Assembly: GCA_036375715.1 (NCBI GenBank)
Contig: DASVBS010000076.1
Location: forward strand, 1 to 64,000
Direction of reading: 5' to 3'
DNA from: Longimicrobiaceae bacterium
GTDB taxonomy: Bacteria; Gemmatimonadota; Gemmatimonadetes; Longimicrobiales; Longimicrobiaceae
DNA: 64,000 nt
The number at the start of each line of letters is the position of its first letter. Position 1 is the first letter of the stretch. The position numbers were made by a program, and so were the translations under genes. The notes beneath the pieces are model-generated. The model was not told the origin of the DNA and did not search any database. It saw nothing but the letters and a program-made list of their open reading frames with translations. Shown piece by piece: positions 694 to 47,640 of this stretch.

Positions 694-3231
694 TTACAGC
701 AATGCGACGGGGTCCCGGTCGATGGTCACGCGCAGGTCGGCGCGTCCCGAGGGCAGGTCGAAACGCTGCGCGAAATAGCGTGTGACGCGTCCCAGCAGAC
801 CGGGCGAGCTGCTCCGCAGCAGGAGGTGCCAGCGCCACCGCCCTCGAATCCGGTCGATCGGGCAAGGCGCGGGGCCTACCAGCTCGACCTCAGAGACTCC
901 TCGCTTGGCAAAGAGACCCCCGAGCCACTCTGCCGCCACCGTTGCTCCCTCCTGAGTCGCGGTCTCCTCGGTTCCGCTCACCACCACGTTCACCAAACGC
1001 GCAAAGGGCGGGTACCGCGGCGCCTGGCGCGACGCCAGCTCCTTCTCGGTGAACCCCAGGAAATCATGCTGCTGAGCGCAGGCGATCACGTAATGGGTCG
1101 GTAGCGAGGTCTGCACGATCACCTCTCCCCCACGTGACCCTCGCCCTGCGCGTCCCGCCACCTGGGTCAGGAGCTGGAAGGTGCGCTCGGAGGCACGGAA
1201 GTCGGGCAGGTTGATCCCCACGTCGGCGTTGATCACCCCTACCAGCGTGACATTGGGGAAATCGAGCCCCTTGGCGATCATCTGCGTCCCGAGGAGGATG
1301 TCGACCTCGCCTCGCTCCACCCGCCCGAGGATCTCGTGGTGCGCCCACTTGCCGGAGGTGGTGTCCACGTCCATCCGCGCGATTCGCGCGGTCGGGAAGA
1401 CCTCTCCCACCGCCCTCTCCACCTGCTCCGTCCCCACCCCGCGAAAGCTCAGATCCCGCGACCCGCATGCCGAGCAGCGGTTCGGCAATGGCTCCTCGTG
1501 CAGGCAGTAGTGACAGGTGATGCGCGCCCTGCGGCGGTGATAGGTCAGCGAGACGTTGCAGTGGGGGCAGTGCCAGACGTGGCCGCAGTCCCGGCACTGG
1601 ACGAAGCTCGCGTACCCGCGACGATTCAACAGCAGGATCGTCTGCTCCCCTCTGCGGATGCGCGCCTCGATCGCGTCGACGAGGTCGGCGCTCAGGATCC
1701 CCGCGCTGGGGAGGGCAGCGCCGCCTTCGTGGCGGAGCCGCTTGCGCTCCGCACGCAAGTCCACTACGCGAATCGGGGGAAGCGGCTGCCCGCCTACCCG
1801 ACCGGGTAGCTCGAGCAGATTGTACTTGCCGCGTACCGCGTTGGACCAGCTCTCCAGCGAAGGCGTCGCCGAGCCGAGCAGGCACACTGCCCTCTCCAAT
1901 CGTGCACGTACTACCGCCACTTCGCGGGCGTGGTAGCGCGGCCCCTCTCCCTGCTTGTACGACCCTTCGTGCTCTTCGTCGACGACGATGGCCCCCAGGT
2001 CGGGTAGCGGGGCGAAGATCGCCGAGCGCGCCCCCACCACGATCCGCTTGGAGCCACTCCGCAGCGCCCGCCACTCGTCGTACCTCTCCCCGTCCGAGAG
2101 CGCGGAGTGCAGCACCGCCACCCGGTCGCCGAAGACCGCCTTGAAGCGCCCCACCGTCTGCGGGGTGAGGGAGATCTCCGGGACGAGCACGATGGCGGTG
2201 CGACCCTGCCGGTCCACCACCTCGCGAAGCAGCTCGATGTAGACGAGCGTCTTGCCTGAGCCGGTGACCCCGCGCAGCAGGTGGGTCGACCCGTCGCAGC
2301 TCCGTGCCGCGGCGATCAGCGCCTCGATCACCTGCTGCTGCGCGGGCGTCGGCCGCAGGTCGGGCGCCTCACCGGGGACGATGCGCGCGTATGGGTCGCG
2401 GGGCACCTCCTCCTCGACGATCTCGGCCACCCCGCGGCGGACCAGCCCCGCCAACACCGCGTGCGAGAAGCCGAGATGCCCGGTGAGGTGCGCGGTCTCC
2501 GCCACCCCACCGAGCGATTCGAGCGTCTCGAAGCATTCGCGCTGGCGTCGTGCGCGCCCGAACACCTCCTCGCGCTCGCGTAGCGAGGGGAGCTCCTGGG
2601 TGAGGCGGAGCAGCCGCCGCGTCAGGACGGGAGGCTGCTCGCGGGGCGGCTCCTGGGTGATCTCGATCACCCCGTCGTCGGCGAGCCGGCGGATCGCCGG
2701 CCACCAGGCGCGATCTCCCCGCTCGCGACGCAGCCGCGCGATCGCCTGCGGCCCCTCCTTCTCGCGCAGCCAGTCGAGGAGCGTGACCTGAAGCGGCGTC
2801 AGCGCGGAGCGGGCCACCGCACTGTCGTCGCGCAGCGAGACGTAGTCGGTGGAGCTATCGCACAGAGCGGCGGGGAGAGCGGTACGGATCACCTGACCCA
2901 GCGGCGCCACGTAGTAGTCGGCGATCCAGCGACAGAGCTGCAGCAGCACCGGAGGCGCGGTCGGCTCCGCGTCGATCACCCCCTGGATCTGCTTCACCCG
3001 CGGAACGTCCGCCTCCTCCGCTACGCTCTCGATCCACCCGATCCGCTCCCCCCGATGAAACGGAACCAGCACCCGCGCCCCCGGCACCGCCCTCGCCTCC
3101 TCATCCTCCGGAACGGCGTAAGTGAAGGTGCGGAAGACAGGCAGAGGCAGAGCGACTCGAACGAAGCGCCGGAATTTTGAATTTTGAATTTTGAATTTTG
3201 AATTGGCCTCCGCACGCCCCTCGCGTTGCAT
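694..3231 (-). CDS. priA: Primosomal protein N' (replication restart helicase PriA)
   Basis: PriA is a superfamily-2 DNA helicase that recognises abandoned forks and reloads the replisome. Visible features: N-terminal DNA-binding domain (FRTFTYAVPE), Walker A TGSGKT, DEEH box (VVDEEHEGSYK), paired zinc-binding Cys motifs (CRDCGHVWHCPHC and CHYC...CSACG), and helicase motifs V/VI (GTQMIAKGLDF, QVAGRAGRG). I chose ATG 3231 (845 residues). A longer frame to 3309 exists but is not PriA-like. No start codon lies closer to the conserved domain, so the mature N-terminus includes residues encoded by a 7-bp repeat array (3173-3204), which is odd for such a conserved protein. Otherwise normal length and complete. 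Confidence 0.96.
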   Translation of the reverse strand: MQREGRAEANSKFKIQNSKFRRFVRVALPLPVFRTFTYAVPEDEEARAVPGARVLVPFHRGERIGWIESVAEEADVPRVKQIQGVIDAEPTAPPVLLQLCRWIADYYVAPLGQVIRTALPAALCDSSTDYVSLRDDSAVARSALTPLQVTLLDWLREKEGPQAIARLRRERGDRAWWPAIRRLADDGVIEITQEPPREQPPVLTRRLLRLTQELPSLREREEVFGRARRQRECFETLESLGGVAETAHLTGHLGFSHAVLAGLVRRGVAEIVEEEVPRDPYARIVPGEAPDLRPTPAQQQVIEALIAAARSCDGSTHLLRGVTGSGKTLVYIELLREVVDRQGRTAIVLVPEISLTPQTVGRFKAVFGDRVAVLHSALSDGERYDEWRALRSGSKRIVVGARSAIFAPLPDLGAIVVDEEHEGSYKQGEGPRYHAREVAVVRARLERAVCLLGSATPSLESWSNAVRGKYNLLELPGRVGGQPLPPIRVVDLRAERKRLRHEGGAALPSAGILSADLVDAIEARIRRGEQTILLLNRRGYASFVQCRDCGHVWHCPHCNVSLTYHRRRARITCHYCLHEEPLPNRCSACGSRDLSFRGVGTEQVERAVGEVFPTARIARMDVDTTSGKWAHHEILGRVERGEVDILLGTQMIAKGLDFPNVTLVGVINADVGINLPDFRASERTFQLLTQVAGRAGRGSRGGEVIVQTSLPTHYVIACAQQHDFLGFTEKELASRQAPRYPPFARLVNVVVSGTEETATQEGATVAAEWLGGLFAKRGVSEVELVGPAPCPIDRIRGRWRWHLLLRSSSPGLLGRVTRYFAQRFDLPSGRADLRVTIDRDPVALL
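3173..3204. repeat. Left heptad array of element A (AATTTTG units)
   Basis: Four tandem copies of a 7-bp unit AATTTTG plus a closing AATT. They lie inside the 5' coding part of priA and are translated as Asn-Ser-Lys-Phe-type residues. It is the left half of a mirror-image pair whose right half is at 3311-3392. Confidence 0.9.
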
Positions 3232-3310
3232 TTGTCCACTCACCAAGAGTATACGATTAGATGCCGCCCCTGACCCACCAAAGCCAGAACTCAGAACCAC
3301 CACTCCCAAT

Positions 3311-3392
3311 CCGTAATTCGAAATTCAAAATTCAGAATTCAGAATTGCCAGGAAGTTATTCGTAATTCGTAATTCGTAATTCAGAATTCAAA
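3311..3392. repeat. Right heptad arrays of element A (AATTCNN units)
   Basis: Two blocks of degenerate 7-bp units (3311-3347 and 3358-3392) in the opposite orientation to the array at 3173-3204, with variants AATTCGT, AATTCAA and AATTCAG. The second block overlaps the 3' end of the dipeptide epimerase gene and provides its TGA stop. Together with the left array it encloses about 106 bp of unique sequence. Confidence 0.9.
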
Positions 3393-26433: not shown

Positions 26434-26524
26434 GAATTACGAATTGCGAATTACGAATTGCGGATTACGGATTACGCCGGCGCGCGATTCCAGCCCGCAA
26501 TTCGTAATTCGTAATTCGCAATTC
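26434..26524. repeat. Heptad-repeat mirror element B
   Basis: Left array of AATTACG/AATTGCG units (26434-26475) and right array of the reverse-complement units (26497-26524) separated by about 21 bp containing GGCGCGC. The halves can pair as one long hairpin. It fills the gap between the convergent multicopper oxidase and TIGR02588 genes, ending four bases before the latter's stop. Confidence 0.9.
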
Positions 26525-31162: not shown

Positions 31163-31300
31163 ACAGAAGACCGCAGGGGTCGCGGAGGACGCCGGGGAGG
31201 GCGCAGAGGGGGTCGGCCGATTACGAATTGCGAATTTTGAATTAAGTCATCCCTACTCCGCGCCCTCCGTGCCGTCCTCTGCGACCTCCGCGGTTTCTGT
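31163..31300. repeat. Composite element C: GC-rich inverted repeat with heptads in the loop
   Basis: Imperfect 45-base arms (31163-31208 and 31256-31300) made of CTCTGCGACCTCCGCGG-type units in opposite orientation, with a run of AATTGCG/AATTTTG heptads at 31219-31245 between them. It lies between the convergent CpsB-like and HD genes. Confidence 0.85.
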
Positions 31301-31339
31301 TTGTTCCGAACGTCTTTCGAAGCCTCCTCCTGCCAGGTT

Positions 31340-31903
31340 TCACAAACCGAGCTCGGGTGCAACCTCCCGCATCGCCTCGATCACGAACTGGACGTGGTCC
31401 TTCAGCTCCACGCCAAACTCCCGCGCCGCCTCGCTCACCTCCTCGCGATCCACCCCGGCCGCAAACGCGCGATCCTTGAATTTCTTCATGACTGACTTCG
31501 CCTCGAGATCGTGCAGCGCCCGCGAAGGGCGAACCAGGGCGGTGGCGCTGATCAGCCCCGTGATCTCGTCGCAGGCGCGGAGCGCCCGATCGAGCAGCGT
31601 CTGCGGGGGCACGTCCGTCCGCGCCGGGTAGCCGTGCGCGAGCACCGCGTGCACGAGCTCGTCCGGATAGCCCGCCTGCCGCAGCACCTCCGCCCCCGGT
31701 CGCGGATGCTCGTCCGGGTGCCTCTCGTAATCGAAGTCGTGGATCAGCCCCGTCGCCCCCCACAGCTCCTCGTCCTCCCCATACTTCCGCGCATACGCGC
31801 GCATCGCCGCCTCCACGGCGTACATGTGACGGCGGAGAGACTCGCTCTCGACCCACGATTGCATCAGGGCAAGGACCTCGGCGCGCGACGGATTCTGGCT
31901 CAT
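31340..31903 (-). CDS. HD domain protein (HDIG-type predicted hydrolase)
   Basis: 187 residues with the HD phosphohydrolase signature: His in LRRHMYAVEAAM, the His-Asp doublet in GLIHDFDYERHPDEHP, His in VLAHGY and Asp in RACDEITGL. This subfamily of small HD proteins is widespread in bacteria; proposed substrates include nucleotides and phosphonates, none proven. Cytoplasmic. Its ATG lacks a Shine-Dalgarno sequence: the region 10-40 bases upstream is occupied by a heptad array (31914-31943), the edge of an element that contains the four-helix-bundle gene. Insertion may have replaced its native leader. Confidence 0.9.
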   Translation of the reverse strand: MSQNPSRAEVLALMQSWVESESLRRHMYAVEAAMRAYARKYGEDEELWGATGLIHDFDYERHPDEHPRPGAEVLRQAGYPDELVHAVLAHGYPARTDVPPQTLLDRALRACDEITGLISATALVRPSRALHDLEAKSVMKKFKDRAFAAGVDREEVSEAAREFGVELKDHVQFVIEAMREVAPELGL

Positions 31904-31913
31904 GGGCGGCGGG

Positions 31914-31943
31914 AAATTACGAATTACGAATTACGAATTACGA
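31914..31943. repeat. Left heptad array of element D
   Basis: Four AATTACG units immediately upstream of the HD gene start. It is the mirror partner of the array at 32440-32468; between them lies only the four-helix-bundle gene. Confidence 0.9.
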
Positions 31944-32004
31944 CTGGGGTTTAGGTCTGTGTGCTCGGCGCATCCATTCTGCGGAAGCCCGGCCGTCGAT
32001 ACCG

Positions 32005-32385
32005 TCAGGCGCTGGAGTCGCGTCCGTCCGAATCGAAGACGTTGGCTTCCGTCGAAAGAATGATGGCGGTCAGCATCCGGATCAACTCATCTGCCTCGGT
32101 GAGCAATGGCCCGGTTTCCTCGCGTGACGCGATGTCCGCATCGTACATCAGTCTCAGCCAGTAGCGGCTCTCGCGAGCCTCCTTGCGGGCGATCGACATC
32201 TTCGAGACGAAGTCCCGCCGGCTCTGAGCGGCGATCGCTTCTTCGACATTCGCCCCTACACTCGTTGCTGAGCGTGCTAGCTGTCGAGACAACACAAACT
32301 CTTTCCTCGCCTGGACGCGCCGATACAGACGCACCGCCGCCAGCGCATAGGCGTAGCTCTTCTCCAGCACAGCATTGTGCCTCAT
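32005..32385 (-). CDS. Four-helix-bundle protein (S23/23S rRNA intervening-sequence family)
   Basis: A 126-residue helical protein of the S23/four-helix-bundle family: KSYAYALAAVRLYRRV, then the family motif LARSATSVGANVEEAIAAQS, KMSIARKEARESRYWLRLM and a last helix ADELIRMLTAII. Relatives are encoded in intervening sequences of 23S rRNA genes and, as Avd, in diversity-generating retroelements; they are basic pentameric nucleic-acid binders. Here there is no rRNA or reverse transcriptase nearby. The gene occupies the centre of a unit bounded on both sides by mirror-image AATTACG heptad arrays (31914-31943, 32440-32468), as if it were cargo of that element. No good ribosome site precedes the ATG. 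Confidence 0.9.
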   Translation of the reverse strand: MRHNAVLEKSYAYALAAVRLYRRVQARKEFVLSRQLARSATSVGANVEEAIAAQSRRDFVSKMSIARKEARESRYWLRLMYDADIASREETGPLLTEADELIRMLTAIILSTEANVFDSDGRDSSA

Positions 32386-32439
32386 CGCTTGGCGGCTGAG
32401 CCGTTACACCTCTCCGACCCCTATTCGGCCTACAATCCA

Positions 32440-32468
32440 AGTAATTCGTAATTCGTAATTCGTAATTC
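32440..32468. repeat. Right heptad array of element D
   Basis: Four AATTCGT-type units, the reverse complement of the array at 31914-31943, beginning 31 bases after the asnS stop codon and lying upstream of the four-helix-bundle gene. Confidence 0.9.
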
Positions 32469-32498: not shown

Positions 32499-33899
<1,401 letters not shown>

Positions 33900-33936: not shown

Positions 33937-34105
33937 GTTATCCGTTATCCGTTATCCGTTGACCAGGTCTCCAGTACAACCGAAGTGACCGAAGACAAGA
34001 CGACCCGTCAGGGCCGAAGGCAACGGACATGGCATCGCCGCGGTGACACTGGAAGCCGCCATTCCCGACGGATAGCGGATAACGGATAACGAATAAGGGA
34101 ATAAC
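33937..34105. repeat. Mirror repeat element E (GTTATCC units)
   Basis: Three GTTATCC units at 33937-33963 and the inverted counterpart (CGGATAA units) at 34067-34105 flank about 103 bp of unique DNA. It fills the space between the asnS start and nth stop. Same layout as the AATTACG elements but a different 7-bp unit. Confidence 0.88.
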
Positions 34106-41435: not shown

Positions 41436-41858
41436 GCCCGGAATTCCAGCGTTACTCGTAGCCGATCGTTGTAGAAAATGAGAGGTGGGATGATAGCGTG
41501 CGCGGGCGCGAGCGGCAAACTGGCTCAGGAGCGTCTTGCGGCGAGCAAGCGTGAGCTCGACGGATCCGAAGCGGTTGCCCGGATTGCGCTGGAAAATTAC
41601 GAATTACGAATTACGAATTATGAGGTCCAAACTGGATTCTGAATTTCGAATTATGACCGGCGGGGCTTCCTCTGCGTCCTATGCGACAACCTCGGCGCCC
41701 TCTGCGACGTTTTACCTCATCAAGCGTGCAGCCGCGACACGGTCCCCACATTCCCCAATTCGCAATTCGCAATTCATAATTCATAATTCATAATTCATAA
41801 TTCATAATTCATAATTCGTAATTCGTAATTAGTAATTCGCAATTGTCCGCTCGCCGAT
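41436..41858. other. Gene-free gap largely filled by repeat element H
   Basis: 423 bases between glyS and the SprT-like gene. The first 150 bases are the glyS leader without recognisable features; the rest is element H. No gene is evident. Confidence 0.7.
41594..41844. repeat. Heptad-repeat mirror element H (longest array)
   Basis: Left arrays at 41594-41623 and 41637-41656 (AATTACG, AATTATG), right array at 41757-41844 with twelve 7-bp units in a row (AATTCGC, six AATTCAT, AATTCGT, AATTAGT). The enclosed 100 bp contain CCTCTGCGTCCT and CCCTCTGCGAC, the same GC-rich units as element C. Confidence 0.92.
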
Positions 41859-47479: not shown

Positions 47480-47640
47480 CAATTACGAACTATGAATTAC
47501 GAATTACGAATCAGGTCTTTGCCGTGTCGTCACGGGCGCGGGCGGAGAACAATCGCATGTGGCACGACGCAGTCGAAGGATTTTCGCTTCACGCTGCGGG
47601 GTTCCGCTCAGGAACGGTCGTAATTCGTAATTCGTAATTC
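47480..47640. repeat. Heptad-repeat mirror element I
   Basis: Left array AATTACG-type (47480-47511), right array AATTCGT-type (47618-47640), about 106 bp of unique sequence between. It begins two bases after the HTH-gene terminator and ends eight bases before the MFS gene stop. Confidence 0.9.

Follow-up and report, generated by a model that had tools for sequence, protein, structure and literature searches.

S23 proteins are encoded by intervening sequences of 23S rRNA genes, e.g., in Coxiella burnetii, where the S23 ORF lies in a loop closed by terminal inverted repeats some 28 bp long (PMC4990558). A role of this ORF in mobility of the intervening sequence was proposed by Ralph and McClelland in 1993 (cited in PMC4990558). 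S23 genes have also been found in cas loci, where 18 of them, annotated as 23S_rRNA_IVP, were discussed in terms of a CRISPR-Cas-associated function (PMC3936711). Heptamer repeats have been described separately. The GGGAATC repeats of Xanthomonas form intergenic arrays of period 7, with 186 arrays and 70 convergent pairs in X. campestris; the G-rich strand is located within 50 bp after stop codons and the opposite strand within 50 bp before start codons, and the paper makes no mention of S23 (PMC4692102). Cyanobacterial heptanucleotide repeats and the TAACTGA repeats of Beggiatoaceae have been reported almost only as direct repeats, with no link to S23 (PMC4679880).

The locus analysed here is located in a stretch of 64,000 nucleotides from a bacterium of the family Longimicrobiaceae, hereafter referred to as the window. 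An S23 gene is the sole gene between two arrays of AATTACG units inserted between asnS and an HD-domain gene (Table 1). The first-pass annotation had described these arrays as exact mirror images, and this was confirmed: the stretches 31915–31941 and 32441–32467, 27 nt each, were 100% complementary, and the S23 ORF was intact. The left arm ended 10–11 nt from the HD start codon (31903) and the right arm about 30 nt from the asnS stop (32499). In the predicted RNA fold, the arms formed one continuous outer stem around the S23 ORF (z = −4.1). Complementary termini with S23 in the loop are the anatomy of a 23S rRNA intervening sequence; the location is between asnS and the HD gene, not inside an rRNA helix. 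Scanning of the window for tandem arrays yielded 12 with a period of 7, a single one with a period of 8, and none of periods 4–6 or 9–12, i.e., dispersed heptanucleotide tandem repeats.

Table 1. Coordinates of the S23 element, its host genes, and S23-less elements in the window.
Feature	Position	Strand	Remarks
Whole element	31915..32468	-	S23 ORF enclosed by pairing arms; predicted RNA fold
5' arm relative to S23	32441..32468	-	Four tandem GAATTAC units
3' arm	31915..31943	-	Exact reverse complement of 5' arm
S23 family gene (PF05635 / TIGR02436)	32005..32385	-	126 aa, intact, four-helix bundle
asnS, upstream host gene	32499..33899	-	Same orientation as S23
HD-domain gene, downstream host gene	31340..31903	-	Same orientation; adjoins asnS in relatives
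S23-less GTTATCC element between nth and asnS	33937..34096	.	Missing in relatives
S23-less AATTACG element	41595..41837	.	Window array scan
S23-less AATTACG element	47494..47640	.	Window array scan
S23-less AATTACG element	26434..26524	.	22-nt interior
S23-less AATTTTG element	3172..3346	.	Adjoins unpaired AATTACG array 3358-3382

The encoded protein matched profiles PF05635 (E = 1.3e-25) and TIGR02436 (E = 1.2e-28), and its AlphaFold2 model was a confident four-helix bundle (pLDDT 92.8); by curated cut-off and fold, it belongs to the S23/23S_rRNA_IVP family. The closest solved structures were 2rld and 2gsc, followed by Avd of diversity-generating retroelements (TM 0.70–0.73). Both 2rld and 2gsc contain five chains in the deposition, and 2gsc was described as five four-helix bundles (Lin et al., 2006, as cited in PMC3936711). 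The 2gsc protein, XCC0516, is an orthologue of the X. arboricola S23 encoded between accB and accC (gene names read from the sequence). Structures of the family have been solved since 2006–2007; we know of no established function for S23/IVP proteins and of no catalytic site in them.

The direct adjacency of asnS and the HD gene, which the first-pass annotation had proposed to look for in other strains, was found in four genomes of the same family, with gaps of 0–152 nt and no S23. In the nearest relative, G298 (HD protein 79% identical), a frameshifted S23 gene occupied the same asnS/HD site, and its heptad was ATTCAAA-like, different from the AATTACG of the window. From comparison of these genomes, the S23 element at asnS/HD is an insertion, and it is not a brand new one, since the decayed S23 with another heptad at this site in G298 places it before the split of the two lineages. 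The difference in heptads means that the array word has since been altered in one of them. One could suppose instead that S23 is a native gene of an asnS–HD operon, around which the arrays were added as regulatory hairpins. The S23 gene is indeed intact and co-oriented with its neighbours, and a decayed copy is present at the G298 site. However, the four family genomes have asnS and HD adjacent without S23, and the sole other S23 gene of the window genome is located between pilB- and pilT-like genes; elsewhere, the hosts include accB/accC, carA/carB, cas, and T4SS operons. As the asnS–S23–HD order is not conserved across the family, the native-gene explanation is already refuted, and we give it next to no credence. 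The HD gene of the window has no Shine-Dalgarno sequence, as had been pointed out, but this absence is no effect of the insertion, because HD orthologues in genomes without the element (L177, L178, L181, and L184) have no clear one either.

S23 loci were sampled in three sets: 80 loci of many phyla, 30 loci of this phylum collected by profile, and further loci of the same S23 subtype as in the window. Period-7 arrays were present in 138 of 268 flanks adjoining S23, compared to 13 of 250 flanks at a distance of 1.1 kb. Periods 4–6 and 9–12 yielded 0–3 arrays beside S23, and period 8 yielded 19 (3 at 1.1 kb away). Where both arms were found, they were inverted at 47 loci and direct at three, and at 30 of 51 loci they were exactly complementary, vs. 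0.8 expected with shuffled partners. A detector that ignored periodicity revealed terminal inverted repeats at 67% of S23 loci bacteria-wide and at 86% in the phylum sample, whereas the controls gave about 2% (shuffled partners) and 0% (HD and nth genes). The inverted flanks predicted for S23 genes of this phylum were thus found well beyond it, with flankless genes in the minority. The proposed general arm word AATTNNG had to be abandoned: the word varies between elements while the two arms of one element match, and any heptad can serve. Among 34 S23 genes from viral contigs, 13 also had inverted arms. Bacteria-wide, arms were undetectable at roughly a third of S23 genes, although some loci scored as armless were degenerate, e.g., L109, the accB/accC-located S23 gene of X. 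arboricola with degenerate GGGAATC arms. No rRNA match was found around 20 other S23 loci, most of them without clear arms, so a location in rRNA does not account for the armless genes at the examined loci. At some S23 genes the arm period was 8 rather than 7 (L024, L031, L049, L058, and L086), and in genome G285, 12 period-8 arrays were observed within 159 kb.

The 5' arm typically ended 8–110 nt upstream of the S23 start codon; the 3' arm was located at the S23 stop or overlapped it. In many loci the arms were 0–30 nt from the upstream stop and the downstream start. By a crude open-frame method, 96 neighbour genes were co-oriented with S23 and 35 were opposed. The elements therefore tend toward the sense orientation, just past one stop and just before the next start. 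The 5' arms were G-rich (204 G to 110 C) and the 3' arms C-rich, and unit words kept to one strand (TCAG 17 to 2, GTGA 12 to 1). In a group of loci (L124–L138), the 3' heptad array was translated as part of the S23 C-terminus, e.g., NPQSAIRNPQS or IPHSAFRIPHS.

Two cyanobacterial plasmids (L171 and L172) shared 78% DNA identity limited to the segment from the 5' arm through the 3' arm, and their flanks were unrelated. In two orthologous pairs (L018/L029 and L028/L034), flanks and S23 were alike, and both arms had switched heptad together. These alignments show that the arms travel with S23 and can change word in concert. At unlinked sites, heptad similarity tracked S23 protein similarity (Spearman −0.17, 0 of 300 permutations), as expected if S23 recognises its own arms, although lineage may confound this correlation. 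On a plasmid of Anabaena sp. 90 (pANA02; L170), a type I-D CRISPR locus contained an S23 gene with ACAGGTG arms, with cas6 on one side and cas4-cas1d on the other. The heptad arms suggest that S23 came into this cas locus as an insertion of the same element type, and the published cas-locus S23 genes (PMC3936711) may have arrived likewise.

The repeats were not limited to S23 loci. The AATTACG 14-mer was found 14 times in the window (chance expectation 0), and AATTACG dimers 392 times genome-wide, compared to 0 for the reversed control; no dimer was detected in 60 relatives. The S23 gene between the pilB- and pilT-like genes had AGCCAGR arms, and this heptad occurred 70 times genome-wide, largely in inverted pairs, as was the case for AATTACG. 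Within each heptad family, unit polarity was the same as in the S23 copy in 42 of 42 sampled inverted pairs. In arrays outside the S23 locus of ten other S23-bearing genomes, there were nine exact matches to the own heptad and one to that of another genome, counts that rest on sampled genome stretches; the window itself had seven own-heptad matches, two of which were the arms of the S23 element. The GTTATCC element adjoining asnS (Table 1) was missing in G298, where the nth–asnS gap was 36 nt.

The S23-less elements had been regarded as non-autonomous derivatives of the S23 element. They have the heptad and its polarity in common with it; their interiors, 11–176 nt in length, were mutually unrelated or consisted of nested repeats, and BLAST of the interiors detected no likeness to that of the S23 element. 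The term derivative therefore holds for the termini only. A MITE-like origin by internal deletion was rejected, since no interior was shared with the S23 element. At one site (L155, 9542–9704), an AATTTTG inverted pair was interleaved with an AATTACG inverted pair in a nested arrangement. A CATCCTGAGCGAAGCGAAGGATC-like dispersed inverted repeat was found inside empty elements at L152 (1849–2070), L161 (5190–5354), and L164 (1232–1412). Four S23-negative genomes contained no period-7 arrays. No strong heptad arrays were present in 100 kb sampled from each of four S23-positive genomes either, so that S23 presence alone does not predict amplification and was discarded as an explanation sufficient for abundant arrays.

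GxxExxY (PDDEXK_3) genes of the phylum (L389–L418), taken as controls, had no period-7 arrays. Terminal inverted repeats were nevertheless present at 13 of 25 GxxExxY loci, with a period of about 8–10, e.g., CACAGAGGG...CCCTCTGTG and CACGAAGG...CCTTCGTG. The period of the repeats thus seems to go with the protein family, and the GxxExxY loci, at about half of the 25, look like a second element class built like the S23 one with another unit length. In the window, the stretches 31165–31215 and 31257–31302 formed an inverted pair of CGCAGAGG/CGCGGAGG-like units with a period of about 9, which resembled the arrays beside GxxExxY genes; the window genome had no GxxExxY match.

Taken together, these data point to S23 with inverted tandem-repeat arms as a widespread and apparently undescribed kind of mobile element. 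Our literature search revealed no link between S23 and heptad arrays; it covered few subscription journals and no preprints and is weak evidence on this point. Anatomy, insertion, joint travel, polarity, concerted change of the arms, and the heptad common to S23-less pairs can be read directly from the compared sequences. The explanation that we consider probable, with some reservation, is that of compact insertion elements distributed across bacteria, in which an S23 gene of about 100–150 aa lies between inverted heptads, is looped out at the RNA level, and aids the spread of the repeats in trans. By analogy with the S23 intervening sequences of 23S rRNA genes, the arms of the transcript would form a stem of about 28 bp from which S23 is looped out, bringing the upstream stop near the downstream start, and operons would thereby tolerate the element. 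The S23 pentamer would bind paired heptads or single-stranded hairpin DNA and would assist in trans in the copying or insertion of heptad hairpins, which could let S23-less inverted arrays with the same heptad spread as passengers. The chemistry would probably be performed by a replication or repair polymerase or nuclease of the host. That the S23-less interiors are mutually unrelated, unlike those of ordinary transposon derivatives, is a point against this explanation. The same holds for the lack of a known catalytic site in S23, for the four S23-positive genomes whose 100-kb samples were free of strong heptad arrays, and for the armless share of S23 genes.

Alternatively, S23 itself could be the passenger, trapped or retained in the hairpin loop as a safe site, with the arrays generated and spread by slippage, template switching between arms, and recombination of the host. 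Template switching with slippage would yield the concerted change of the arms; the arbitrary interiors of the empty elements and the lack of a match to a dedicated reverse transcriptase or Y1 transposase in the genome also fit. However, period 7 goes with S23 rather than with genes at large, the arms at GxxExxY loci having longer periods; S23-less arrays have heptads that agree with the S23 of their own genome; and heptad similarity follows S23 similarity, with the reservation on lineage given above. We therefore regard a passenger role as rather unlikely.

Two further explanations assign the mobility to another enzyme. A reverse transcriptase with S23 as its Avd-like partner could copy hairpin RNA into DNA, which would suit the closeness of the S23 fold to Avd and the sense-biased, operonic insertion. 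Yet no match to RVT_1 (PF00078), and hence no sign of a diversity-generating retroelement, was found in the window genome despite its amplified AATTACG family, and we consider this improbable. Mobilisation of the hairpins in trans by a Y1 (HUH) transposase, as in REP/RAYT systems, with S23 as cargo, would be in line with the inverted, intergenic, multi-copy, and hairpin-forming arrays. The genome, 95% complete, contained no PF01797 match; the missing 5% could hide one, and still this explanation appears highly improbable to us.

A mobility or maintenance factor of the heptad elements is thus the most likely role of S23. This suggestion of the first-pass annotation is consistent with all the data and has gained strength from being extended beyond one locus; it is still inferred. 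More tentatively, the elements may represent a new kind of mobile element with interchangeable termini, in which the unit length of 7 is set by the pentameric S23, the word drifts, both arms are rewritten together and copied to S23-less sites, and GxxExxY elements form a second class. The findings would tie the function of S23 to the overabundance of heptamer repeats in bacterial genomes, for which, to our knowledge, no cause has been established. They also suggest why S23 genes occur within operons such as cas, accBC, carAB, and T4SS, and they open the guess of 1993, in which S23 is the mover of intervening sequences, to testing at tractable loci outside rRNA.

Among the known systems, S23-coding intervening sequences share with the window element the protein family and an ORF looped between inverted termini. 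The window element differs from them in its position in protein-coding operons, in heptad arms of varying word, and in the S23-less arrays throughout the genome. Avd has a related four-helix fold; its reverse transcriptase partner has no match in the window genome. The GGGAATC repeats of Xanthomonas resemble the window arrays in being intergenic and of period 7, and the heptads of cyanobacteria and Beggiatoaceae in being dispersed and intergenic, although the latter have been reported almost only as direct repeats.
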